DNA of 64,000 bases, from NCBI GenBank assembly GCA_017519865.1, contig JAFWRQ010000014.1:1-64000 (forward strand), written 5' to 3'. Positions 3,199-59,413 of this stretch are shown here, one piece after another. This DNA comes from Bacteroidales bacterium (GTDB taxonomy: Bacteria; Bacteroidota; Bacteroidia; Bacteroidales; UBA932). The position numbers were made by a program, and so were the translations under genes. Every line of letters starts with the position of its first letter. Positions within the stretch are counted from its first letter, which is position 1. A model generated the notes under the pieces. The model was not told the origin of the DNA and did not search any database. It saw only the letters and a list, made by a program, of their open reading frames with translations.

Positions 3199-3243
3199 CA
3201 AAGATAGTGATTTTTTGCATTTACACGAAAATTCGTATATTTA
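3199..3243. promoter_or_regulatory. divergent promoters for 2147-3166 (-) and 3293-5053 (+)
   Basis: On the minus strand TATCTTTG (3206 to 3199) matches the Bacteroidetes -7 box and lies about 33 nt before the minus-strand ATG. On the plus strand TTTG (3214-3217) and TATATTTA (3236-3243), 18 bp apart, form a near-consensus -33/-7 pair for the gene starting at 3293. The two promoters overlap, so the two genes may compete for polymerase. Confidence 0.6.
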
Positions 3244-3292
3244 CATATGCACTGACCGTGAACAGAGTAACAACCCATAAACATAACCAAGC

Positions 3293-5053
3293 ATGAAAAA
3301 CAAAGTCCTAGTATGCCTGGCGCTTCTGTCGGGTCTGGCTGTACAGGCATTGGCCCAGCACCCGAACCCAACCATCAGCTATCTTGAGATATACGATGTC
3401 GAGAGCCGCACCCATCGCGTCATCAAGGAGTTTCCCTTCGTGGTCGAGGCTCCCAACTGGACGCCTGACGGCAAATGGCTGGTCGTGAACAGGGGCGGAA
3501 AGCTTTACAAGATCGCCCCGGACGGCTCCACGGACCTTCAGGAGATAAACACAGGCTCCATCGTCGGTTGCAACAACGACCACGTCATCACGGTGGACGG
3601 CAAGTGGATAGGCATCAGCAGCAACGACCCGGCCAACCGCCAGTACAGTTCATACGTCTACATCGTTCCCTTCGAGGGGGGTGAACCCAGGAAGCTGACT
3701 CCTCTCGGCCCCAGTTACCTGCACGGCATCAGCCCCGACGGCAAGACCGTCGCCTACTGTGCCTTCCGCGGCCCCGGCCAGGAGCAGGACGTCTGGGTGA
3801 TGCCCGTCAAGGGCGGCAAGGAGACCCGCCTGACCGATGCCCCCGGCCTCGACGACGGCCCCGAGTACAGCCGCGACGGCAAGTACATCTGGTTCAACAG
3901 CGTCCGCACCGGCCGCATGCAGGCCTGGAGGATGAAGGCCAATGGCAAGGAGCAGACCCAGATGACCTTCGACGAGGATATGAATTCCTGGTTCCCGCAC
4001 ATCTCGCCCGACGGGAAGAAGGTGGTTTACATCGCCTATCACGACTATGAGGTGGATCCCGGCTCGCACATCGCCGACCTCAATGTCCAGCTCCGGATGA
4101 TTCCCGCCACGGGAGGTGAACCCGAAGTGCTCGTCGAGTTCTTCGGCGGCCAGGGAAGCATCAATGTCAACTCCTGGAGCCCCGACAGCAAGCAGTTCGC
4201 TTACATCAGTTACAGGCTTACCGAGGAGGTAGAGGCCCCCAAGAAGGAGATGAACGTCCAGCTCTACTCCGCCCGGTCCCTGATAGGCACGCCCGAGCTT
4301 TTCGCCAAGAATCACGAGTATGTGTTCCAGCGGCTTGCGCAGATGGGCTATACAGGTGTCGAGGCCGCCAGCTATGCCGACGGGAAGTTCTCCGGCCTTG
4401 AGCCGGCGGCATTCCGCCGCGAGCTCAACAAGGCCGGCCTGGAGTTCGTCTCGTCGCACACCAGCCACGCCCTCAGCGCATCGGAGCTCGCTTCCGGCGA
4501 CTTCACCGAGGCGTTGAAGTGGTGGGACGCTTGCATCGCGGCGCACAAGGCTGCGGGAGTCCGCTATCTGGCGATGTCCTATTCTCCTCCCCTCAAGACC
4601 GAAGCCGAGATCAAGACCTATGCGGCCTATCTCGACGCCATCGGCGCGAAGTGCAATGCCGCCGGCATACGTTTCGGCTATCACAGCCACAACCATGAAT
4701 ATGCCAAGGTCGGAAATACGACCATGATGGACGGATACATCTCCAACACCAAGCCCGAGAACGTTTTCTTCGAGATGGACGTTTACTGGGCGGTCATCGG
4801 TGGGGCGAGCCCGGTGGAGTATTTCAACAAATATCCCGGCCGCTTCGAGGTTCTCCACATCAAGGACAAGTACGAGATCGGCCAGAGCGGAATGGTGGGC
4901 TTCGAGGCCATCTTCAACAACGCCGCGAGAGCGGGCATGAAAGAGTATGTCGTCGAGTTGGAGTATGCCAGCACCAGGAACATCCTGAAGGGTCTGCGCG
5001 AGAGCGCCCTCTTCCTTCGCAACTCTTCCTATGTAAAGCCGTCGTACAAATAG
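3293..5053 (+). CDS. TolB-like beta-propeller fused to sugar-phosphate isomerase/epimerase-like TIM barrel
   Basis: This 586-aa secreted protein has a signal peptide (MKNKVLVCLALLSGLAVQALAQ). Residues about 23-312 carry repeated PD40/TolB-type blades (APNWTPDGKWLVV, GISPDGKTVAY, WFPHISPDGKKVVY, NSWSPDSKQFAY). From Met320 (MNVQLYSARSLIG) to the end it is a xylose-isomerase-like TIM barrel with the metal/catalytic-type motifs YHSHNHEY, FFEMDVYWAV, VLHIKDK and VVELEY. In related bacteria I know these as two separate proteins, so this is an in-frame fusion. The barrel family acts on keto- or epimerisable sugars, but the substrate here is unknown; the propeller may bind glycan or peptide. The next gene, NagB/PIG-L, suggests a place in amino-sugar metabolism. 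Confidence 0.8.
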   Translation: MKNKVLVCLALLSGLAVQALAQHPNPTISYLEIYDVESRTHRVIKEFPFVVEAPNWTPDGKWLVVNRGGKLYKIAPDGSTDLQEINTGSIVGCNNDHVITVDGKWIGISSNDPANRQYSSYVYIVPFEGGEPRKLTPLGPSYLHGISPDGKTVAYCAFRGPGQEQDVWVMPVKGGKETRLTDAPGLDDGPEYSRDGKYIWFNSVRTGRMQAWRMKANGKEQTQMTFDEDMNSWFPHISPDGKKVVYIAYHDYEVDPGSHIADLNVQLRMIPATGGEPEVLVEFFGGQGSINVNSWSPDSKQFAYISYRLTEEVEAPKKEMNVQLYSARSLIGTPELFAKNHEYVFQRLAQMGYTGVEAASYADGKFSGLEPAAFRRELNKAGLEFVSSHTSHALSASELASGDFTEALKWWDACIAAHKAAGVRYLAMSYSPPLKTEAEIKTYAAYLDAIGAKCNAAGIRFGYHSHNHEYAKVGNTTMMDGYISNTKPENVFFEMDVYWAVIGGASPVEYFNKYPGRFEVLHIKDKYEIGQSGMVGFEAIFNNAARAGMKEYVVELEYASTRNILKGLRESALFLRNSSYVKPSYK

Positions 5054-5116
5054 CATCATACGCAAAAGGGGTATAGGATTCCGCAAATCCCGTCCCCTTT
5101 TGATTCCGACTTTTCT

Positions 5117-5146
5117 TATATTTGCAGAACGAAGCCATCGTTCTGC
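5117..5146 (+). promoter_or_regulatory. -7 box abutting a perfect hairpin with T-run (terminator or operator/attenuator)
   Basis: TATATTTG at 5117-5124 matches the -7 box. Its last G begins a perfect 9-bp inverted repeat, GCAGAACGA/TCGTTCTGC with a 5-nt loop (5124-5146), followed by ATTTTTT and the ATG at 5154. The hairpin with its T-run looks like an intrinsic terminator for the upstream fusion gene. The same dyad covers the expected transcription start of the NagB/PIG-L gene, so it could also be an operator. Confidence 0.5.
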
Positions 5147-5153
5147 ATTTTTT

Positions 5154-7079
5154 ATGGAAAAGCATTTCACTCTCCCTTACGAAGGCGGCCTGATCGAGAC
5201 CGACCTGCCTGCCGGCATCCTGCACAATTATGAAAAGATCTGGACGGACATCTACCCCGAGTCCCGCCAGGCATCGATCGCCGTCGCCGACCTCGTCGTC
5301 GACGCCATCAAGTCCTGCGAGGGAAGGCTTTTCCGCCTGGGACTGACCACCGGCGCCACGCCGGTTACGCTGTATGAGGAACTTGCCCGTCGCTGCCGTG
5401 CCGGGGATGTGTCTTTCCAGCAGGTCGAGATCTTCTCCATCGACGAGTACTATCCCGCGTCCGAGAATGACCTCCAGAGCCGCAATCACCGCCTGCATAC
5501 CGCGCTCCTGGACCAAGTAGACATCCTTCCCGAAAATATCCACATTCCCGACGGTACGGTCCCGCAGAAAGACGTTTCCGACTATTGTGCGGCATTCGAC
5601 CGCCAGGCTCGCGACCTCGACCTTCTGGTCATAGGTATAGGCGAGGAGGGTCAGGTGGGCTTCAACGAAGCAGGCAGCAATGAAAAGACCCGGACACGTA
5701 CTGTGAGGCTCTCATACAAGTCGAGGAAACGGCAGTCGCGGAACTTCAACCACGATTTCTCGTCCACGCCGGAGAGTGCCATAACCATGGGCATCGGAAC
5801 GATGCTCACTGCAGGCCGCATCATCCTGATGGCCTGGGGAGAAGACAAGGCCGAGGCAGTCAAGGCCGTCGTCGAAGGCGAGATCACCACGGCCTGTCCG
5901 GCATCACTCCTGCAGCGCCACGACCACATCCGTTTCTTCACGGACGAGACGGCCGCCAGCCTCCTGACGCGGGCTGTTGCTCCCTGGCTCGTCGGCCCGT
6001 GCGACTGGACGCCGAAACTCGTGCGCAAAGCCGTTGTCTGGCTTTGCCTTACCGTCGAAAAACCTATCTTGAAACTCACGGAGAAAGACTATCTGGAGAA
6101 TTCCCTGGGTGGTCTGCTAGAGTACTACGGAAGTTTCGACAAGGTCAACATCGACGTGTTCAACGACCTTCAGCATACGATAACCGGATGGCCCGGCGGC
6201 AAGCCGGGAGCGGACGACAGGTTCCGCCCGGTAAGTGCCACACCGTTCCCCAAGACAGTTCTGATCTTCTCGCCCCATCCCGACGATGACGTCATCTCGA
6301 TGGGCGGAACGTTCATCCGTCTCGTGTCCCAGGGCCACGACGTCCACGTCGCGTACCAGACGTCCGGAAACGTCGCCGTGCACGACGACGTCGTATTGCA
6401 GCACATGGACACCGCTTTCCAGCTGGGCATGGCCGACCGTTTCGCCGAGGTGAAGGCGCTCGTGGACGCCAGGATCCCCGGCGAGCCGGAGCCCCGGGCG
6501 CTGCTGGACCTCAAGGGCGCCATACGGCGCAGCGAGGCCCGCTCCGCCGTCCGCTCATTCGGCCTGGATGCCGACAGGAACGTGCATTTCCTCAACCTTC
6601 CCTTTTACGAGTCGGGAGGCATCAAGAAGAATCCCTGCACCCAGGTCGACATAGACATCATAAAGGATCTGGTCCGCAGTCTGAAACCTGATATGGTCTT
6701 CATGGCCGGCGACCTGGCAGACCCTCACGGAACGCACCGGGTCTGCACCGAGGCCGCCCTCGAGGCCCTCGACCAGTTGCAGGAGGAAGGGGAGGCCTGG
6801 CTTGCCGGGACAAATGTCTGGCTGTACCGCGGCGCCTGGATGGAGTGGGAGCCCGGGCGTGTGGACATGGCCGTGCCGCTCAGCCCGGACGAGGTCGTCC
6901 TCAAGCGCCACGCTATCTTCCGCCATCTCTCGCAGAAGGATATCGTCCCGTTCCCGGGCGAGGATCCTCGCGAGTTCTGGCAGCGCGCCGAGGAACGTAC
7001 GCAGAACACCGCCAGGCTGTACGACCGTCTTGGAATGGCCGAATACCAGGCCCTGGAGGTGTTCCTGAAACTTCGCTGA
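5154..7079 (+). CDS. nagB: NagB-like glucosamine-6-phosphate deaminase fused to PIG-L/LmbE deacetylase-like domain
   Basis: ATG 5154 (MEKHFTLPYEG) is chosen over the upstream TTG, giving 641 aa. Residues about 10-280 are NagB-like with LTTGATPVTLYEEL and FSIDEYYP. The catalytic loop reads GEEGQVGFNEAGS, so the residues equivalent to E. coli D141 and H143 are Glu165 and Gln167, while Glu172 (E148) is kept. Residues about 375-641 form a PIG-L/LmbE zinc-hydrolase domain with SPHPDDD and DPHGTH metal motifs. The long two-domain form is known in Bacteroidales and is usually annotated as deaminase: GlcN6P to fructose-6-phosphate plus ammonia, in the cytoplasm. The substitutions make deaminase activity uncertain; the deacetylase-like half keeps its ligands. 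Confidence 0.8.
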   Translation: MEKHFTLPYEGGLIETDLPAGILHNYEKIWTDIYPESRQASIAVADLVVDAIKSCEGRLFRLGLTTGATPVTLYEELARRCRAGDVSFQQVEIFSIDEYYPASENDLQSRNHRLHTALLDQVDILPENIHIPDGTVPQKDVSDYCAAFDRQARDLDLLVIGIGEEGQVGFNEAGSNEKTRTRTVRLSYKSRKRQSRNFNHDFSSTPESAITMGIGTMLTAGRIILMAWGEDKAEAVKAVVEGEITTACPASLLQRHDHIRFFTDETAASLLTRAVAPWLVGPCDWTPKLVRKAVVWLCLTVEKPILKLTEKDYLENSLGGLLEYYGSFDKVNIDVFNDLQHTITGWPGGKPGADDRFRPVSATPFPKTVLIFSPHPDDDVISMGGTFIRLVSQGHDVHVAYQTSGNVAVHDDVVLQHMDTAFQLGMADRFAEVKALVDARIPGEPEPRALLDLKGAIRRSEARSAVRSFGLDADRNVHFLNLPFYESGGIKKNPCTQVDIDIIKDLVRSLKPDMVFMAGDLADPHGTHRVCTEAALEALDQLQEEGEAWLAGTNVWLYRGAWMEWEPGRVDMAVPLSPDEVVLKRHAIFRHLSQKDIVPFPGEDPREFWQRAEERTQNTARLYDRLGMAEYQALEVFLKLR

Positions 7080-31248: not shown

Positions 31249-32265
31249 ATGTCCAAGTATAGTTCGATCGCAGTTTTCTACGGCAGCGACTCCTCCGAGT
31301 GGGAGGTCGCATGCCGGAGCGGGGAGTTTACCGCGTCCCGCATCGACGAGAACGTATATGATGTCTATGAGATCCTTGCCCGTTTCGGCCGCTGGCAGCT
31401 GGTCGCATATCGCAAGAGGAACTCCATGCGCGTCATCTTCCCCGAAGGGTCGCGCCCCGAGGTCGACAAGACCGACTGTTCCGTCCGTGTCCTCGGCGAG
31501 AAGGTCAAGTTCGACTTCGTGTACATCATGCAGCACGGCAAGCCGGGTGAGAACGGTCTTCTCCAGGGCTATTTCGAGATGCTGGGAGTCCCTTACAGCG
31601 GGTGCAACTCTTTCGTGAGCGCCGTCTCGTTCGACAAGTACTCCTGCAAGAACTATCTCCGTGACGTAGACTTTGTCAAATGTGCGCCCGACGCTTTTGT
31701 GCGCAAGGGCGCCGACCTCGAAGCCTTCGCTGAGAAGGTCGTCGGAAAGCTCGCTTTCCCCGTGTTCGTCAAGCCCACTGACGGAGGTTCGAGTTTCGGC
31801 ATCACCAAGGTCAGCCGTCCCGAAGACCTCATCCCCGCTATCCAGTTCGCCTTCTCCGAGGGCCCGATGGTGCTCGTGGAGCAGGGTATAGTCGGCCGCG
31901 AACTCACCTGCGCCGCCTATCTTGACGGCAAGGAAGTCAAGGCGCTTCCCCTTATCGAGATCGTCACCGAGAACGACTACTTCGACTACGACGCCAAGTA
32001 CAACGGCCGCAGCCAGGAGATCTGCCCGGCGCCGGTGTCCGAGGACGTCCGGGTCCTGGTACAGGACACGACGGCCCGGATATATCGCCGGCTGGGCTGC
32101 GCCGGAGTCGTGCGCGTGGATTTCATCCTGGCCGAGGATGGCCTCTATTTCCTGGAAGTCAACACTATCCCCGGCATGACCAGCGCTTCACTCGTGCCGC
32201 GCATGGTCCGTACGGCTGGGATGGACATGACATCCTTCCTGTCCATCATCATCGAGAATTCCTAA
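31249..32265 (+). CDS. ddl: D-alanine--D-alanine ligase
   Basis: The 338-aa ATP-grasp enzyme shows PGENGLLQGYFEMLGVPYSGCN, the Lys/Gly loop VFVKPTDGGSSFGITKV, and CAGVVRVDFILAEDGLYFLEVNTIPGMT with the metal-binding acidic residues. It joins two D-Ala in the cytoplasm for the peptidoglycan precursor. The gene lies 6 bp after PBP1A and 3 bp before prmC. Motifs are complete and the length is normal, so it should be active and D-Ala specific; nothing here points to a D-Lac or D-Ser type. Confidence 0.95.
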   Translation: MSKYSSIAVFYGSDSSEWEVACRSGEFTASRIDENVYDVYEILARFGRWQLVAYRKRNSMRVIFPEGSRPEVDKTDCSVRVLGEKVKFDFVYIMQHGKPGENGLLQGYFEMLGVPYSGCNSFVSAVSFDKYSCKNYLRDVDFVKCAPDAFVRKGADLEAFAEKVVGKLAFPVFVKPTDGGSSFGITKVSRPEDLIPAIQFAFSEGPMVLVEQGIVGRELTCAAYLDGKEVKALPLIEIVTENDYFDYDAKYNGRSQEICPAPVSEDVRVLVQDTTARIYRRLGCAGVVRVDFILAEDGLYFLEVNTIPGMTSASLVPRMVRTAGMDMTSFLSIIIENS

Positions 32266-32268
32266 GGA

Positions 32269-33180
32269 ATGCTTCTCGCGGATTTCATACGTGAAGGGAC
32301 ACGGTCCCTCGGGGGCCTGTACCCTGAAAGGGAGGCTCGCAGCATCGTCCTGATGCTGTGCGAGGCCTTTCTGGGGACGCGCAGTTATACTCATATAGTC
32401 GAGCCGGGGACAGTCGTTGAGTCGGGCGCCGTGCCGGCCCTCGAAGCCGCGATGGCGCGGCTCCTGGCCGGCGAGCCCGTGCAGTACGTCACGGGCTTCG
32501 CGGAGTTCTGCGGGTTCCGTTTCTGGGTCACTCCGGACGTGCTCATACCCCGTCCGGAGACCGAGCAGCTGGTCCGCGAAGCCGTGGCGGAGATCTCCCG
32601 CCTGCGGGGGATGCGCGGCCCTTCCGGGCGCGACGCATCCCCGGTGCGGGTACTGGATCTCTGTACAGGGTCCGGCTGCATCGCCTGGTCCGTAGCCCTG
32701 CTGGCTCCTGGGACGGAAGTCATAGGTGTCGACGTTTCGGAGGAAGCCCTGGCAGTGGCCCGGGCGCAGGATTTTGCGCGGGAATGCGAGGCTTGTGGAG
32801 CCGTCCCTCCGCAATTCATCAAAGCCGACGTCCTTGATACTGAACGGGACTTCTGCCATGGCCCTTTCGACCTGATCCTCAGCAATCCTCCTTACATAAT
32901 GGATTCCGAAAGGGACCGTATGCATCGCAATGTGGTCGACTTCGAACCCGGCATCGCGCTGTTCGTCCGCGATGACGACCCTTTGGTTTTCTATCGTGCT
33001 GTTGCGGAGTGGTCGAGGCGTTTCCTGGTACCGGACGGGATGGGGATTTCCGAAATCAATGAACGTCTTGGTGACGGGACTGCCAGGGTCTTCCGCGCCG
33101 CAGGGTTCACCCATACCGCTGTCGAAAAGGACATTTTTGACAGAAACCGTTTCGTTAAGTATTCCGAAATCGCCTTCTGA
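32269..33180 (+). CDS. prmC: peptide chain release factor N5-glutamine methyltransferase
   Basis: The 303-aa SAM-dependent methyltransferase has a helical N-terminal domain (ADFIREGTRSLGGLYPEREARSIVLMLCEAFLG), VQYVTGFAEFCGFRF, VLIPRPETEQLV, the SAM loop VLDLCTGSGCIAW and the catalytic LSNPPYI. It methylates the GGQ glutamine of release factors in the cytoplasm. It is 3 bp after ddl and ends the cell-wall run. A hairpin-forming dyad at 33206-33238 follows 25 bp after the stop and may help end transcription. Confidence 0.95.
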   Translation: MLLADFIREGTRSLGGLYPEREARSIVLMLCEAFLGTRSYTHIVEPGTVVESGAVPALEAAMARLLAGEPVQYVTGFAEFCGFRFWVTPDVLIPRPETEQLVREAVAEISRLRGMRGPSGRDASPVRVLDLCTGSGCIAWSVALLAPGTEVIGVDVSEEALAVARAQDFARECEACGAVPPQFIKADVLDTERDFCHGPFDLILSNPPYIMDSERDRMHRNVVDFEPGIALFVRDDDPLVFYRAVAEWSRRFLVPDGMGISEINERLGDGTARVFRAAGFTHTAVEKDIFDRNRFVKYSEIAF

Positions 33181-33205
33181 GAGGCCTCCAGGCTTGTTTT
33201 TCCTT

Positions 33206-33252
33206 TTTATCCGTTTCCATTTTGTGCAAACGGATAAATATCGCTCCCTTTG
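33206..33252 (+). promoter_or_regulatory. perfect 11-bp dyad overlapping a TTTG-20-TCCCTTTG promoter
   Basis: TTTATCCGTTT (33206-33216) and AAACGGATAAA (33228-33238) form a perfect inverted repeat with an 11-nt loop. The -33 box TTTG (33221-33224) lies in the loop, and TCCCTTTG (33245-33252) follows exactly 20 bp later. The position suggests an operator that blocks the promoter of the lipoprotein gene at 33274; the hairpin could also act at the end of prmC. Confidence 0.5.
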
Positions 33253-33273
33253 CATAACTAAAGGAAGTATGCT

Positions 33274-37173: not shown

Positions 37174-37278
37174 TTCTCTTTCGATAGCCCAGGCTGTTGT
37201 TACTACCACTTCTGGTTCCAGAGGCGGCATGGATTGTCGTTCTCCAGGGACTCTTGTGCCCAATCATTCTCTATCATC

Positions 37279-38190
37279 GTGGACCCTCTCCTGTCAAAAG
37301 TCACCTTGCGTGACGCCGGCACGGCATTGCTGGACCTCGCGATGCCGCGCCACTGCGTCGCTTGCCGCCGCCCCCTTGGCCTTCGCGAACGTTTTCTCTG
37401 TCTGGAATGTCAGGCAGACTTTCCTTTCACCCATTTCTGGGAACGCTCCCACAATCCCATGGCCGACAAGTTCAACGCCCTCATCCAGAAGGACCTTGAC
37501 GCCCTTTCCGTGCCCTCCATCTCCGCCGACCCGATTGTCCTTTCTCCCACTATGCGTGAGGTTTCACTGCCCCCCTCATCTCCCGACCCCAATACCTCCA
37601 CCGGGCCTTCTTCGTCAGTCGAGCCTTCCCCTTCGCTTCACGAGCCATACGCCTTCGCCGCTGCCCTTTTCTTCTACAACGCCGACTCGGATTACCGCCA
37701 TATCCCCTGGCACCTGAAATACGAAGGCGGGCTCGCGGCCGGGCGGTTTTTCGCCCGCATGCTGGGGGAGCGCCTCGCCGGCTCGCCGCAGTTCGCCGAC
37801 GTGGACATTGTCATCCCCGTTCCGCTGCACTGGACGCGGCGATGGCGGCGCGGCTACAACCAGGCGGAGGTCATAGCGCGCGAGCTGGCGGATGTCCTCG
37901 GCGCAGACCTGCGCACGGACATCCTCCGCCGCGCCCGCCGCACCCGCTCCCAGGTCCGCCTCGCCCCCGACGCCAAGGCCGCCAACGTCCGCGGCGCCTT
38001 CATCCTTCGGGCATTTCCCGAAGGATGTGACGCGGCTGACAGTGTGCTTCGGACGAAGCACGTGCTGTTGGTCGACGACACGTTCACCACCGGGTCGACG
38101 GTGAATGCCTGCCGCGCCGTGCTCAGGCAGGCATTCCCTCTCCCTACCCGCATCTCCGTCGCAACCCTGGCCTACGTCAGTTCTGAATAA
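37279..38190 (+). CDS. comF: ComF-family phosphoribosyltransferase-like protein
   Basis: It has a zinc finger (CVACRRPLGLRERFLCLEC), a Ser/Pro-rich spacer (about 85-115), HIPWHLKYEGGLAAGRFFARMLGERL, VPVPLHWTRRWRRGYNQAEVIAREL and the PRPP loop VLLVDDTFTTGSTVNAC. ComF proteins take part in DNA uptake or purine/nucleotide salvage-related steps; the activity is not settled. There is no good ATG: GTG 37279 is my choice, TTG 37234 and ATG 37342 are alternatives. A 27-bp REP palindrome (38001-38027) is read in frame as LRAFPEGC just before the PRPP loop, a coding insertion. The RAYT gene starts 28 bp downstream. Confidence 0.85.
   Translation: MDPLLSKVTLRDAGTALLDLAMPRHCVACRRPLGLRERFLCLECQADFPFTHFWERSHNPMADKFNALIQKDLDALSVPSISADPIVLSPTMREVSLPPSSPDPNTSTGPSSSVEPSPSLHEPYAFAAALFFYNADSDYRHIPWHLKYEGGLAAGRFFARMLGERLAGSPQFADVDIVIPVPLHWTRRWRRGYNQAEVIARELADVLGADLRTDILRRARRTRSQVRLAPDAKAANVRGAFILRAFPEGCDAADSVLRTKHVLLVDDTFTTGSTVNACRAVLRQAFPLPTRISVATLAYVSSE
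38001..38027 (-). repeat. REP palindrome inside comF
   Basis: CATCCTTCGGG and CCCGAAGGATG (11-bp perfect arms) enclose loop CATTT. It is the same element as the arrays at 39124-39234 and 59303-59413, but in opposite orientation, since those loops read AAATG or AAAAG. It is translated as part of ComF. Confidence 0.9.
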
Positions 38191-38217
38191 ATCAAATAAT
38201 CCCTAAATCTAAAAACT

Positions 38218-39150
38218 ATGACACCCGAAAGAAAATTCTACAGGAACGGCTTCCAGCACATCTTCCAGATTTCCGTCGACCGTGGCCTCATCTTCTACAC
38301 TGATGAGGATTGCATTGTATTCTTCACAATACTCTGCAGCATGGCGGTCAAGTACCGCGTCCGCATCGTAGCGGTCTGCATAATGAAAAACCATTTCCAT
38401 ATCCTTGTTCAATTCGTATTGAAGGACAATATGGAATCATTCCTGAACGCCCTCTGTTCCGTCTTTGCACGGAAGTACAATTTCAGATACAACAGAAAAG
38501 GTAAACTATTCAGAAAACCATATGGTAATGCCCCGAAGTACGGCGATGACATATATGGCTGTTTAATATACATTTACAATAATCCTATCCCCAAAAAGGC
38601 CAGGGAGACCGCAGTCGCATACCGATGGAATTTCCTTGCTTATATGGATTCCAGGAACCCTTTTTCCACTCCACTCAACAATACTTCAGACATTACCCTC
38701 CTGAAACAGAGATTCTCAATGGTGGAGAGGATCCACAGTTCCGGGAAGTATATCGACTATGCCGTCCTGGACTCATTGAAAGAAGGTTTGAATGATGAAC
38801 AGTATCTGCAGCTCCTGGACCACATAGTATCGGTATTTAATGTCATTGATTACAGCCTGATACAGTCAAAATGGAAGTCAAGGGAATCGCTGTGCGAAAT
38901 GCTTGGCCTGGTCAAGGGATTGGAATATGATCTGAACGAGGACCTTTCACGGGAGGATTACCGTAACTACGAAAGGATGAATGTGCTTGTCCGCAAGGCT
39001 GGTTTCAATCTGTCAAGGCGACGTTTCGACAGCGAAGACGCTGATCCTTCCCAGATAAGCCGTCTTCGCGGGATGGCCGTCTACAGCCTTAATCCCTCAG
39101 ACGTCGAATTGGCTAAATATTTTCATACCGGCGAGTACGCCCGAAGGTAG
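38218..39150 (+). CDS. REP-associated tyrosine transposase (RAYT), Y1/HUH family
   Basis: The 310-aa protein has a Y1 transposase domain in its first ~140 residues: the HUH motif NHFHIL (His59, His61), candidate nucleophile tyrosines Tyr87/Tyr91 in FARKYNFRYNRKGKLFR, and YIYNNPIPKKA. HUH enzymes cut single-stranded DNA through a 5'-phosphotyrosine, and RAYTs act on REP hairpins. The C-terminal half (about 150-310) is an extension beyond the usual 150-220 aa; it is helical and unrecognised. It has lower GC and other codon use than comF and the rSAM gene, which suggests transfer. REP palindromes lie 191 bp upstream and at its 3' end; the last codons and stop (ARR, TAG) are inside the first REP unit. 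Confidence 0.88.
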   Translation: MTPERKFYRNGFQHIFQISVDRGLIFYTDEDCIVFFTILCSMAVKYRVRIVAVCIMKNHFHILVQFVLKDNMESFLNALCSVFARKYNFRYNRKGKLFRKPYGNAPKYGDDIYGCLIYIYNNPIPKKARETAVAYRWNFLAYMDSRNPFSTPLNNTSDITLLKQRFSMVERIHSSGKYIDYAVLDSLKEGLNDEQYLQLLDHIVSVFNVIDYSLIQSKWKSRESLCEMLGLVKGLEYDLNEDLSREDYRNYERMNVLVRKAGFNLSRRRFDSEDADPSQISRLRGMAVYSLNPSDVELAKYFHTGEYARR

Positions 39151-39234
39151 TGTCTGAAACGCCCGCATCCTTCGGGAAATGCCCGAAGGAAGTGCACGAA
39201 ATGCCTGCATCCTTCGGGAAATGCCCGAAGGATG
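39124..39234 (+). repeat. REP array: three palindromes at 42-bp period
   Basis: Units at 39124-39150 (left arm diverged, right arm CCCGAAGGTAG), 39166-39192 (right arm CCCGAAGGAAG) and 39208-39234 (perfect CATCCTTCGGG/CCCGAAGGATG). Loops are AAATG in the last two. The 15-bp spacers are alike (TGTCTGAAACGCCCG, TGCACGAAATGCCTG). The period of 42 bp is four helical turns and 14 codons. The RAYT stop TAG forms the end of unit 1. Confidence 0.92.
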
Positions 39235-39293: not shown

Positions 39294-40367
39294 ATGGAGA
39301 GAATCTTGCTCAGGCGCAGGATGGCGCTGGACATAGTGAAGCGGCTGCAGGACGAGGCGGTGGAGAAGCACGGGCTCAACCAGCTGTTCTGGGAATGCAC
39401 GCTGCGCTGCAACCTTGCCTGCAGGCATTGCGGCAGCGACTGCCGTACTCAGTCAGCGGTCAAGGATATGCCGGTGGAGGACTTCTGCAGGGCGCTGGAT
39501 TCCGTCGCGCGGGAATGCGACCCGCACAAGGTGATGGTGAACATCACCGGCGGGGAGCCGCTGGTCCGCGCTGACCTCGAGGCCTGCGGCCGCGCCATCT
39601 ACGAGCGCGGATTCCCCTGGGGGATGGTCACCAACGGCCTCGCGCTCACTCCCGCACGCTACAGAAGCCTGCTTGCAAGCGGCCTCAGAGCGATGACCAT
39701 CAGCCTGGACGGCCTCGGCGAGGTCCACGACTGGATGCGCGGCCGGCCGGGCACCTTCAAGAAGGCCTCGGAGGCTATCAAGATGGTCATAGACTCCGGT
39801 GAGATAGAGTTCGACGTCGTCACCTGCGTGAACAGGCGCAGCCTCCCCCAACTCGAAGACCTGAAGGAGTATCTCATCGGCCTGGGCCTCAAGTCCTGGC
39901 GCCTGTTCACGATTTTCCCTGTCGGGCGGGCGGCCGGAGACCCGGAGCTCCTCCTTGACGGAAGGGAGCTCCGGCAGTTGATGGATTTCATCAAGGCCAC
40001 CCGCAAGGAAGGCCGCATCCATGCTTCTTTCGCCTGCGAAGGCTTCCTGGGCAATTACGAGGGGGAGGTCCGCGACCAGTTCTATATGTGCCAGGCGGGC
40101 GTGACCGTCGGCTCCGTCCTGGCCGACGGGTCCATCTCCGCCTGCCCGAGCATCCGCGCGGACTATGTCCAGGGCAATATCTACGAGGACGATTTCATGG
40201 AGGTATGGAACCGACGTTTCCAGCCTTACCGCGACCGTTCGTGGATGAAGAAGGACGAATGCGCCGACTGCCGCTACTGGAAATACTGCCGCGGCAACGG
40301 CATGCACCTGCGCGATGAAAACGGCAGGCTGGTCCAATGTTTGATGCAAAAAATGTCAAAGATATGA
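39294..40367 (+). CDS. radical SAM/SPASM enzyme of the rSAM/lipoprotein system
   Basis: ATG 39294 (MERILLRRRMALDIVKRLQDEA) is chosen; a longer GTG-started ORF would translate the REP array and is rejected. The 357-aa protein has the 4Fe-4S motif Cys39-x3-Cys43-x2-Cys46 (CNLACRHC), TGGEPLVRADL, TISLDGL, and a C-terminal SPASM-type cysteine set (MCQAG, ACPSI, CADCRYWKYC, QCL). The arrangement with a small lipoprotein overlapping by 4 bp matches the Bacteroidetes rSAM/lipoprotein pair (TIGR04133/TIGR04134 as I recall them). It probably modifies the partner lipoprotein or another peptide; the chemistry is unknown. Confidence 0.85.
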   Translation: MERILLRRRMALDIVKRLQDEAVEKHGLNQLFWECTLRCNLACRHCGSDCRTQSAVKDMPVEDFCRALDSVARECDPHKVMVNITGGEPLVRADLEACGRAIYERGFPWGMVTNGLALTPARYRSLLASGLRAMTISLDGLGEVHDWMRGRPGTFKKASEAIKMVIDSGEIEFDVVTCVNRRSLPQLEDLKEYLIGLGLKSWRLFTIFPVGRAAGDPELLLDGRELRQLMDFIKATRKEGRIHASFACEGFLGNYEGEVRDQFYMCQAGVTVGSVLADGSISACPSIRADYVQGNIYEDDFMEVWNRRFQPYRDRSWMKKDECADCRYWKYCRGNGMHLRDENGRLVQCLMQKMSKI

Positions 40368-53390: not shown

Positions 53391-53436
53391 CAAATATAGC
53401 AATTTACGGGAACGAAAACGGCATTTTCATTCCCGT
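53391..53436 (-). promoter_or_regulatory. promoter of the ABC operon with an overlapping dyad
   Basis: TATATTTG (53398 to 53391) is the -7 box. The 13-bp dyad ACGGGAACGAAAA/TTTTCATTCCCGT (53406-53436, one mismatch, 5-nt centre) covers the -33 area. It shares the ACGGGAA start with the terminator hairpin just beyond it. Confidence 0.5.
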
Positions 53437-53452
53437 TACGGATATTTTACCA

Positions 53453-53489
53453 AAAACGGGAATGGAATTGCGTTTTCCATTCCCGTTTT
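53453..53489 (-). terminator. terminator of the wHTH/membrane protein operon
   Basis: A perfect 15-bp inverted repeat AAAACGGGAATGGAA/TTCCATTCCCGTTTT with a 7-nt loop lies 9 bp after the wHTH stop and is followed on the minus strand by a T-run. The plus side also has TTTT, but no gene reads into it from that side. Confidence 0.8.
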
Positions 53490-54558: not shown

Positions 54559-54642
54559 TGCCCGAGGCGGGACTCGAACCCGCACATCTTTAAAGGACAA
54601 TGGATTTTGAGTCCATCGCGTCTACCATTCCGCCACTCGGGC
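54559..54642 (-). tRNA. tRNA-Leu (anticodon CAA)
   Basis: The 84-nt minus-strand cloverleaf has acceptor arms GCCCGAG/CTCGGGC, a D-arm with GGAATGGTAGACGC, an anticodon arm with loop CTCAAAA (anticodon CAA, reads UUG), an extended variable arm as expected for Leu, and a T-arm GCGGGTTCGAGTCCCGC. The CCA end is not encoded. It has its own promoter and terminator and sits between the wHTH operon and aroB. Confidence 0.93.
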
Positions 54643-54651
54643 AAGGTGGTG

Positions 54652-54682
54652 CAAAGGTATGGAAAAATCCACGATTATCAAA
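54652..54682 (-). promoter_or_regulatory. promoter of tRNA-Leu
   Basis: On the minus strand TTTG (54682 to 54679), 19 bp and TACCTTTG (54659 to 54652) form a -33/-7 pair. It ends 9 bp before the mature tRNA 5' end. A -7-like TATCTTGT (54692-54699) for aroB lies on the other strand and is close to the aroB ATG. Confidence 0.65.
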
Positions 54683-54707
54683 TAAAATCCCTATCTTGTC
54701 GTGCTTT

Positions 54708-55832
54708 ATGGAAGAAATTAGATTATACGTCAGGGAGGACTTCTCCGACCTGCCCGGATTGCTTCGTGAAGAAAACGAAGTTTACCTTGTCTACGACCGG
54801 AACGTGTCGTGGGCGGCGGAGCGCATCCGCGGGCTGTGCGCCCTTCGGGGCGCGATGGCCGTGGACGCCTCCGAGTCCGCCAAGAATCTTGGTACCGTTA
54901 CCGATATCTGCCGCTTCCTGCTGGATTCAGGTGCGGACCGGAAGGCGCTGGTGCTGGCGCTCGGTGGTGGGATAACCACGGATATGGCCGGCTTCGCCGC
55001 CTGCATATACAAGCGCGGTGTACGTTTCGCCACATTGCCCACAACTTTGCTGGCCCAGGTGGATGCCGGCATCGGTGGCAAGACCGGAGTCAACCTCGAC
55101 GGTTACAAGAACATCCTCGGTGTCATCCGGCAGCCAGAGTTTGTGTACATTGCCGGAAACACGCTGGAGACGCTTCCGGAACGGGAGTTGCGCTCAGGCG
55201 TGGCCGAGATGCTGAAGACTTTCATCATCTCGGACGCGCCGCATTACCGCCGGGCTCTGCAGCTGCTGCGCAGCGGCGCCCGGCCGGACGCGGAGCTCAT
55301 CCGCGCCGCCGCCTCCATCAAGTGCGGCGTCGTGGAGCGCGACGAGTTCGAGACCGGCGAGCGCCGCGTCCTTAACCTCGGCCACACCGTCGGCCATGCC
55401 GTCGAGTGGTGGCAGTCCCGCAGGGTACCCGCCGAAACGGCCTGCCCTGCGGGCAAATTCCCGCAGGGTGCCGTCGAAAGCGGCCTACCCTGCGGGCAAA
55501 CTCCCGCAGGGTACCCCCAAAGCGGGCCTACCCTGCGGGTGTCGCACGGCGAGGCGGTCGCGATCGGCCTGGTACAGGCGGCGCGGCTGTCGGAGGCCCT
55601 CGGCGTATGCCGGAGGGGTCTGGCCGCGCAGCTGGAGGCCGACCTGGCCTCCGTCGGGCTGCCGACCGCGTGTCCTGTCCCGGTGGCGGGCCTGCGGGAG
55701 GCCATCGCAAAGGACAAGAAGGCTGACGGCGGTTCGGTCCACTTCGTCCTGATACGCGACATCGGCAAGGTCGAGGTCAGGCTGCTGCCGGTCGACACCA
55801 TTATCCAACTGCTTGAAACTGCGAATCTATGA
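54708..55832 (+). CDS. aroB: 3-dehydroquinate synthase with an in-frame palindromic-repeat insertion
   Basis: ATG 54708 (MEEIRLYVREDFSDL) is chosen, giving 374 aa. The NAD and metal motifs are clear: LGGGITTDMAGFAACIYKRG, TTLLAQVDAGIGGKTGVNLDG, KNILGVIRQP, RSGVAEMLK, LNLGHTVGHAVE and SHGEAVAIGL. The enzyme makes dehydroquinate from DAHP in the shikimate pathway. Between GHAVE and SHGEAVA, normally a short loop, lie about 45 residues (55417-55539) encoded by a 43-bp-period palindromic array, adding about 43 residues. The metal ligands remain intact, so activity may persist with a surface loop. The stop overlaps the aroD-aroA start (ATGA). Confidence 0.9.
   Translation: MEEIRLYVREDFSDLPGLLREENEVYLVYDRNVSWAAERIRGLCALRGAMAVDASESAKNLGTVTDICRFLLDSGADRKALVLALGGGITTDMAGFAACIYKRGVRFATLPTTLLAQVDAGIGGKTGVNLDGYKNILGVIRQPEFVYIAGNTLETLPERELRSGVAEMLKTFIISDAPHYRRALQLLRSGARPDAELIRAAASIKCGVVERDEFETGERRVLNLGHTVGHAVEWWQSRRVPAETACPAGKFPQGAVESGLPCGQTPAGYPQSGPTLRVSHGEAVAIGLVQAARLSEALGVCRRGLAAQLEADLASVGLPTACPVPVAGLREAIAKDKKADGGSVHFVLIRDIGKVEVRLLPVDTIIQLLETANL
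55417..55539 (+). repeat. 43-bp-period palindromic array inside aroB
   Basis: Right half-arm CCCGCAGGGTA (55417-55427), full palindrome CCCTGCGGG/CCCGCAGGG (55445-55468), full palindrome TACCCTGCGGG/CCCGCAGGGTA (55486-55513, loop CAAACT) and left half-arm (55529-55539). Equal parts are exactly 43 bp apart. Three periods are 129 bp, so the aroB frame is kept. All three forward frames stay open through the array. Spacers have small GCCG/CGGC-like stems of their own. Confidence 0.92.
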
Positions 55833-59302: not shown

Positions 59303-59413
59303 CATCCTTCGGGAAAAGCCCGAAGGTAGCGGCAGTTTCGTTGACATCCTTCGGGAAAAGCCCGAAGGTAGTGGCGATTTCAGTGACATCCTTCGGGAAA
59401 TGCCCGAAGGATG
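59303..59413 (+). repeat. REP array: three palindromes at 42-bp period
   Basis: Units at 59303-59329 and 59345-59371 (CATCCTTCGGG, loop AAAAG, CCCGAAGGTAG) and 59387-59413 (perfect CATCCTTCGGG, loop AAATG, CCCGAAGGATG). Spacers are CGGCAGTTTCGTTGA and TGGCGATTTCAGTGA. It is the same family and the same 42-bp period as the array next to the RAYT gene 20 kb away. It fills the gap between the convergent nhaC-like gene and aroC and may act as a bidirectional terminator or mRNA stabiliser. Confidence 0.93.

Follow-up and report, generated by a model that had tools for sequence, protein, structure and literature searches.

The DNA analyzed here (the window) is a stretch of 64,000 nt from a Bacteroidales bacterium, of rumen type to judge from its nearest named relatives (G000:C9:1-64000, where G000 is a metagenome-assembled genome of 2.12 Mb that is 75% complete). 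It carries a gene for a transposase associated with repetitive extragenic palindromes (REPs). This REP-associated tyrosine transposase (RAYT) and its palindrome constitute a REP-RAYT pair, a known kind of system with some unusual features. The gene order is comF, RAYT, and a TIGR04133 radical S-adenosylmethionine (SAM) gene, and copies of its own REP lie on either side of the RAYT gene. We consider it likely that a private hairpin family is the substrate of the RAYT-like Y1 (HUH) protein, a single-stranded DNA nuclease/transposase. The REPs presumably owe their mobility to the RAYT. From the sequences, we infer that it binds, cuts, and copies them, as well as which of the two palindrome forms described below is older.

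The palindrome is abundant in its own genome and confined to a small lineage. At up to three mismatches, it was found at 53 sites in G000, compared to none for a reversed-pattern control, and its exact core is present in 21 copies in G000 and absent from 60 congeners. In the window itself, six core matches (at most two mismatches) were observed against 0.04 expected, and none of 100 shuffles reached six. The first-pass annotation of this DNA had proposed a REP-RAYT arrangement and had named two outcomes that would speak against it, namely, a palindrome limited to seven sites or one equally frequent in relatives that lack the RAYT gene. Since there are 53 sites genome-wide and the exact core is missing from the 60 congeners, neither outcome was obtained, and the arrangement is supported by both copy number and lineage restriction. 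The palindrome exists in two forms, A (core CCTTCGGG) and B (core CCTGCGGG). A combined pattern that accepts both, applied to 400 genomes, gave 33 matches in G000, 15 in G190, 8 in G169, and 4 in G081; the other 396 genomes gave 0-2 (26 of them nonzero), and the reversed pattern gave 0 in G000 and 0-1 elsewhere. The matches in G000 comprise 21 A and 12 B copies, those in G190 are all B (15 B, 0 A), and one of the four in G081 is half A and half B. G000 and G190 are the sole two genomes with this RAYT, which is a small sample; G169 and G081 have no RAYT at the locus.

The window RAYT matches Pfam PF01797 (Y1/HUH transposase; E 7.8e-8, 32.9 bits, cut-off 23), as do 34 of the 36 members of alignment group A2 at E ≤1. 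Its best match in NCBIfam is the equivalog NF047646 (REP_Tyr_transpos), at 36 bits, below the curated 80-bit cut-off; all six members of alignment group A1 match this model at E ≤0.01. A fold search with the predicted structure returned IS608 and ISDra2 transposases in the 12 top rows, and the C-terminal region of the predicted structure gave a weak DnaA-like fold match. Sequence searches against solved structures yielded weak matches or none (2xo6 at E 0.0053), and PHROGs a single weak transposase match. Residues H59, H61, Y118, N121, and N122 are identical in all 71 aligned RAYTs (the window's own included), and the class 2 Y---NP signature is present as Y118IYNNP123. P123 is kept in 6/6 members of group A1 and is not among the columns conserved at ≥85% in the 71 aligned RAYTs. 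The HUH histidines H59 and H61 had thus been correctly assigned at the outset, unlike the catalytic tyrosine, which had been placed at Y87/Y91: the actual residue is Y118, position 87 is tyrosine in only 31 of the 71 proteins, and the commonest residue at position 91 is cysteine (20/71). The length of 310 aa and the long C-terminal region are as first described, although not an extra of this protein, as all 71 aligned RAYTs have at least 294 aa. Similarly, the lower GC of the gene (0.458, compared to 0.637 for comF) is real, but its reading as recent acquisition does not hold. GC is below that of the own locus in 70 of the 71 RAYT genes of the genus; therefore, low GC is a family trait and no sign of recent arrival. 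Recent acquisition is further countered by G190, whose RAYT at the corresponding locus is 60% identical.

The association between RAYTs and private hairpins extends across the genus. A RAYT homolog at E 0.001 is present in 45 of 61 genomes. The set of 71 RAYT loci consists of 30 from the homolog search (including the window's), two more of G000, and 39 from longer matches; short or weak matches are excluded, as is L120, which gave no RAYT open reading frame (ORF). Palindromes occur on both flanks of 49 of these loci, and in 29 of the 71 the two flanks have in common a word of at least 8 nt; in a cross-locus control for the 49 loci, 2.0% of 2352 pairs share a palindrome word of at least 8 nt. 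The 29 loci with matched flanks fall into 22 groups by shared 8-nt words. Two further RAYT palindromes, picked by eye, were counted in the 61 genomes. One is present in 9 copies in its genome of origin (G004) and missing from the 60 others. The other is carried by the RAYTs of G037 and G038, where 44 and 54 copies were counted, respectively; a further two genomes have 2 and 1 copies, and 57 have none. In the three counted cases, the hairpin is abundant with its RAYT and rare or absent elsewhere. Among RAYT pairs at least 45% identical, 4/39 share an 8-nt palindrome word, compared to 5/367 below this value, and no smooth correlation between RAYT similarity and palindrome similarity was found across these 39 and 367 pairs. 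By these sequence comparisons, the palindromes change faster than the RAYT proteins. At loci L255-L258 and L046 (G037 and G038), palindromes of the type TCCTCGTTC stand in tandem with a period of 125-135 bp. In L256, a second palindrome-like piece (CTGTCAC...GTGACAG) lies between the TCCTCGTTC units, giving a composite element that resembles the bacterial interspersed mosaic elements (BIMEs) and has a different period.

The palindromes upstream of the RAYT, at its 3' end, and at 59303-59413 (Table 1) lie where the first-pass annotation placed them, with several changes in their description. The upstream palindrome is not intergenic; it sits within the comF ORF. In the 3' array, described as three units, two full palindromes 42 bp apart are present, and the remaining unit is a single right arm, so that the array reads R-15-L-5-R-15-L-5-R (L and R, left and right arms; numbers, nt between them). 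The RAYT stop codon (TAG) lies inside this arm, as had been noted. Three more palindromes are indeed present some distance away, at 59303-59413, but they are not identical copies: both the loop and the outer feet vary in two of them. The canonical GTAG/GTGG hairpin foot is not a fixed feature of form A: of 60 exact-core A arms from chains in the examined G000 stretches, 32 have CAT as their foot and 7 have CTA, which reads as GTAG on the opposite strand. In form B, the fourth base falls in the gap.

Comparison with sister species shows that the two flanks of the RAYT differ jointly. G190 (L121, L214) has the same gene order, with comF 71% (tblastn), the RAYT 60%, and the radical SAM protein 90% identical, and it carries B-type arms at the equivalent comF position and a B-like array at the RAYT end. 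The tie between gene and substrate is therefore closer than first claimed. In G081 and G169, comF and the radical SAM gene are kept with no RAYT between them, and comF contains decayed B-like palindromes at that position. These decayed copies hint that B may be the older form in this group, but CCTTCGG, as in A, is found with the next-nearest RAYTs. Among the 400 genomes, the RAYT nearest to that of the window is the one in G190 (60%), followed by a group at 42% with a related but different palindrome, AACCTTCGGAG. The A and B arms of the switched arrays agree at 33/55 positions at the RAYT end and at 24/33 positions at L047, the 3' end of a HemN-like radical SAM gene. At L047, the gene simply ends with its stop codon in G169 and G081, whereas a B array (R15L6R15L) follows in G190 and, in the same register, an A array (R15L5R) in G000. 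A clean insertion in comF was also considered. The stretch from GAF to H[VI]L has 17-22 residues in the four species and 10-16 in ten of 11 other usable rows (opposite-strand rows left out, L176 in the wrong frame); the case is weakened, with the remaining row, L158, at 23 residues.

We propose that the flanking palindromes would serve as both cognate substrates and source copies of the RAYT. Single-stranded arms would fold as hairpins, L-5-R or R-15-L, and the RAYT would bind them, cut beside the foot via Y118, and rejoin the strands. Arms together with the gap segment would be copied to new places and added next to existing copies, and chains in which the 15-nt gap stays constant would result. 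Form A, present at the RAYT and at some of the other sites in the lineage of the window, differs in concert from the sister form B, and other B copies persist there. An extension of this scheme, which we regard as rather unlikely, is that the RAYT also keeps the arms uniform and, upon a change in its hairpin preference, rewrites them in place, even within comF. Such hairpin-templated replacement at old sites would be a mechanism for the orthoswitch discussed below. It predicts the A/B difference at L047, at the same gene end and in the same register, and the joint change of both RAYT flanks. It also predicts the pattern of a B array shared by G000 (L209) and G190 (L196), in which the arms are 43/44 and the gaps 20/36 identical, whichever way the modules are paired. 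Shared gap sequence at L047 was rejected as proof of in-place change, because 294 of 1739 between-array pairs, compared in their best orientation, attain the observed identity of 10/15.

Several observations sit less easily with the proposed scheme. Between G000 and G190, the proportions of synonymous (pS) and nonsynonymous (pN) differences in the RAYT are 0.81 and 0.24, compared to a pS of 0.40-0.56 in nine neighboring genes (one minus-strand ORF, 32191-33255, was omitted as likely read in the wrong frame; its pS is 0.17 and its pN 0.27). This silent-site divergence indicates either very fast RAYT evolution or replacement of one of the two genes. In addition, the B copies in G000 show no visible decay, and no B-type RAYT was found in this 75%-complete genome; G169 and G081 also retain B copies in the absence of this RAYT. 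A single RAYT tolerating both forms would account for the undecayed B copies in G000. The alternative suggested by the silent sites is that a diverged RAYT with one palindrome form replaced the other as a cassette at the comF-radical SAM locus, in which case the two genes are not vertical orthologs and specificity did not change gradually. We consider this possible, although less probable than not. Against it, the G190 RAYT is by far the nearest in the 400 genomes, fast RAYT evolution has been reported before (PMC2817692), and replacement at the RAYT locus leaves unexplained the A/B difference at L047, far from the RAYT.

The arrays are chains of 11-nt arms with alternating gaps of 5-6 nt and 15 nt. 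Palindrome-to-palindrome gaps, with any distance below 60 nt allowed, are 15 nt in 35/39 cases and 14 nt in 4/39 in G000, and 15 nt in 5/8 and 14 nt in 3/8 in G190. In single-arm chains, the short gap is 5 nt in all 29 A cases and 6 nt in 38/45 B cases, and the long gap is 15 nt in 21/25 (A) and 38/49 (B), the remainder being 14 nt except for one of 16 nt. With exact cores only, 15-nt gaps make up 28/29 in G000, 16/18 in G190, and 3/3 in G169. A wider chain finder, which accepts 12-18 nt only and includes chance pairs, gave 48/61 in G000. The gap is also kept in a mixed array (L056), where an A unit is followed by B units. The fixed 42-bp period stated in the first-pass annotation is therefore a consequence of 27 + 15, as the 28-bp sister form gives 43 (28 + 15); what is constant is the 15-nt gap. 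A constant 42-bp helical period was rejected as the rule, with B at 43, the mixed pair at 42.5, and some at 41. A CRISPR-like array was likewise rejected, given the 15-nt gaps and the copies within genes, although no search for cas genes was made.

The gap sequences themselves are variable, with a direct identity of 0.38 between arrays and 0.63 within arrays. A central A- or T-run of at least three is found in 56 of 58 distinct 15-nt gaps (shuffles: mean 4.2, maximum 12), counted in chains with at least two exact cores, hence not in the variant arrays on contigs C1, C30, and C31. These belong to larger arrays of 4-7 units built from the variant arms CATCCTTCGGC, TATCCTTCGGA, CATCCTTCGCC, and CTTCGTTCGGG (L054, L055, L061, and L058 on C1, C30, C31, and C12 of G000); in those on C1, C30, and C31, the central run is missing from most gaps. 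The unit-to-unit gap sequences are very similar in the variant arrays on C30, C31, and one of the two on C1, as expected if arrays grew by replication slippage alone and the constant period reflected tandem duplication. This explanation is improbable for the arrays as a whole, because gaps that differ in sequence between arrays nevertheless stay at 15 nt, even from A to B. Both L-5-R and R-15-L are predicted to fold as single-stranded DNA. Many B arrays have a right arm at their start and a left arm at their end, and lone R-15-L modules occur in G190 and G169; thus, the unit that moves may be R-15-L. Palindromes of a third family, AACCCTCAACC..GGTNGAGGGTT, lie near or within A and B arrays (L048, L053, L054, and L055 of G000) and were not seen beside the RAYTs examined in that genome.

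Comparison of occupied and empty sites between species suggests that REPs were inserted. The aroB site has a 123-bp B array in G000 and 18 or 27 nt in G190, G169, and G081, and the A array at 59303-59413 has no exact-core arm chain at the corresponding loci of these three genomes. Conversely, a B array in G190 (L206) has no counterpart in G000 (L061). In a B12-dependent methionine synthase gene (metH-like, L209), a B array is located between the B12-binding and activation domains, and the site in G169 has one B-like unit. A PP-loop gene, which we take to be tilS-like, acquires about 33 residues in frame from an A array. The array of this gene (L050:2999-3093 in G000) has nothing alike in G169 (L246), and the counterpart in G081 (L249) has a different insert with long inverted ends at the same place; the site is perhaps an insertion hot spot within the gene. 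On C1 of G000, a segment of about 1 kb (L054:3655-4717) is inverted relative to G190 (L197) and is bordered by REP arrays at 3202-3396 and 5112-5264, as if these were the inversion ends.

The palindromes could instead be host elements, such as transcription terminators, mRNA stabilizers, or nucleoid or gyrase sites, with the RAYT merely nearby. A number of arrays do lie within tens of bases of gene ends, the predicted hairpins are stable, and A/T tracts with a spacing of about 21 bp might cause DNA bending. We regard this as very improbable, since the sequence is confined to one species or a small clade, where it accompanies its RAYT, copies lie in frame within the aroB, metH-like, and tilS-like genes, and several compared sites have no copies in relatives. 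It is also highly unlikely that the locus is an ordinary IS200/IS605 insertion sequence with the other palindromes as its deletion remnants: despite a Y1 transposase with hairpins on each side and a predicted fold resembling IS608 TnpA, the gene is single-copy in G000 rather than present in several near-identical copies (the other four matches are at most 31% identical), the locus is kept in the sister species, and the homolog search gave no RAYT match beside dispersed palindromes.

The comparisons that follow refer to the consulted parts of four papers. The system resembles the REP-RAYT pairs (REPtrons) of Stenotrophomonas, Pseudomonas, and enterobacteria (Nunvar 2010, PMC2817692) in that the Y1 gene stands between copies of its own palindrome, which is numerous in the genome, that hybrid arrays combine two REP types, and that the RAYT evolves faster than its neighbors. 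It differs in its symmetric palindromes, the lack of a fixed GTAG foot in form A, the short constant 15-nt gap, and the 310-aa protein with a large C-terminal region. BIME-2 of E. coli, described in the same paper, also consists of palindromic units in tandem with regular spacing; here, a single arm sequence occurs in both orientations, and the gaps measure 5-6 nt or 15 nt. The term orthoswitch was applied to different REPs at syntenic RAYTs in Pseudomonas and Stenotrophomonas (Nunvar 2013, PMC3686654). Common to both cases are syntenic RAYTs that are flanked by different REP classes in related strains, and the coexistence of the two classes in a single genome. The present case differs in belonging to a Bacteroidales lineage, in having one flanking palindrome inside a coding gene (comF), and in an array away from the RAYT, where one and the same gene end bears A in one species and B in another. 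Within the TnpA-REP classification (Quentin 2018, PMC6006769), the NH[IFV]H and YIxNNP motifs of subclass 2.4 fit NHFH and YIYNNP, although the conserved W between HUH and Tyr (WQ in 2.4) is missing here. Bacteroidetes members and in-frame REP insertions are likewise described for the subclasses compared (2.4, 2.6, and 2.1, taken together), and 2.1 has a large C-terminal domain, partly DnaA_C-like. Subclasses with a large C-terminal region are reported there without REP association; both are combined here. Di Nocera 2013 (PMC3733652), on GTAG REPs, intragenic REPs, and Rickettsia palindromic elements, describes REP ends that supply stop codons and arrays that encode extra residues within genes; the palindrome sequence and the gap rule are not those found here.

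RAYTs, REP arrays, private palindromes, the orthoswitch, REP stop codons, and intragenic REPs are thus already published (PMC2817692, PMC3686654, PMC3733652, PMC6006769). The consulted parts of these papers hold no precedent for the 15-nt gap rule, for REPs with a large-C-terminal RAYT, features kept separate in the 2018 classification (PMC6006769), or for one gene end that, across four species, is found empty, with a B array, or with an A array. The turnover of REP families has been a standing question since orthoswitches were described, and for their mechanism, only speculation was possible (Nunvar 2013, PMC3686654). Because the locus is in different states in four related species, and one gene end shows the empty, B, and A states, a base-by-base comparison can separate insertion from replacement. 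The genus set (71 loci, 29 with matched flanks) is a resource for how a RAYT recognizes its hairpin, and the arrays within genes show that housekeeping enzymes can carry REPs as extra residues.

Table 1. Features of the window at the RAYT locus and at the dispersed arrays
Feature	Position	Strand	Remark
comF-type phosphoribosyltransferase, host of upstream palindrome	37234..38190	+	NCBIfam comF E 5.7e-18, 65.5 bits, under cut-off
REP-A palindrome CATCCTTCGGG-CATTT-CCCGAAGGATG	38001..38027	.	within comF reading frame
RAYT-like Y1/HUH transposase, 310 aa	38218..39150	+	H59-x-H61, Y118-x-x-N121-N122-P; long C-terminal region, common to the family
Right arm CCCGAAGGTAG containing the RAYT stop codon	39140..39150	.	
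REP-A palindrome 1 of 3' array	39166..39192	.	
REP-A palindrome 2 of 3' array	39208..39234	.	single-stranded DNA fold -12.2 kcal/mol, z -7.2
TIGR04133 radical SAM protein, downstream neighbor	39294..40367	+	575.7 bits, cut-off 425; marks the conserved locus
3-Dehydroquinate synthase (aroB), carrier of REP-B array	54600..55832	+	Pfam DHQ_synthase E 2.5e-39; DHQS_C in two stretches
REP-B array R15L6R15L6R15L, 123 bp	55417..55539	.	in frame within the dehydroquinate synthase gene
Dispersed REP-A array, three palindromes, 15-nt gaps	59303..59413	.	

Other palindromes were also observed. One like CGGCAGATGCGACATT..AATCCCGCATCTGCCG is dispersed in G081 (L155, L251, L248) and G169 (L243, L240), and it occurs twice in the gap between comF and the radical SAM gene of G081. 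In the window, positions 53406-53486 hold two related imperfect palindromes, with 32-nt arms that are 81% complementary and 17 nt between them.

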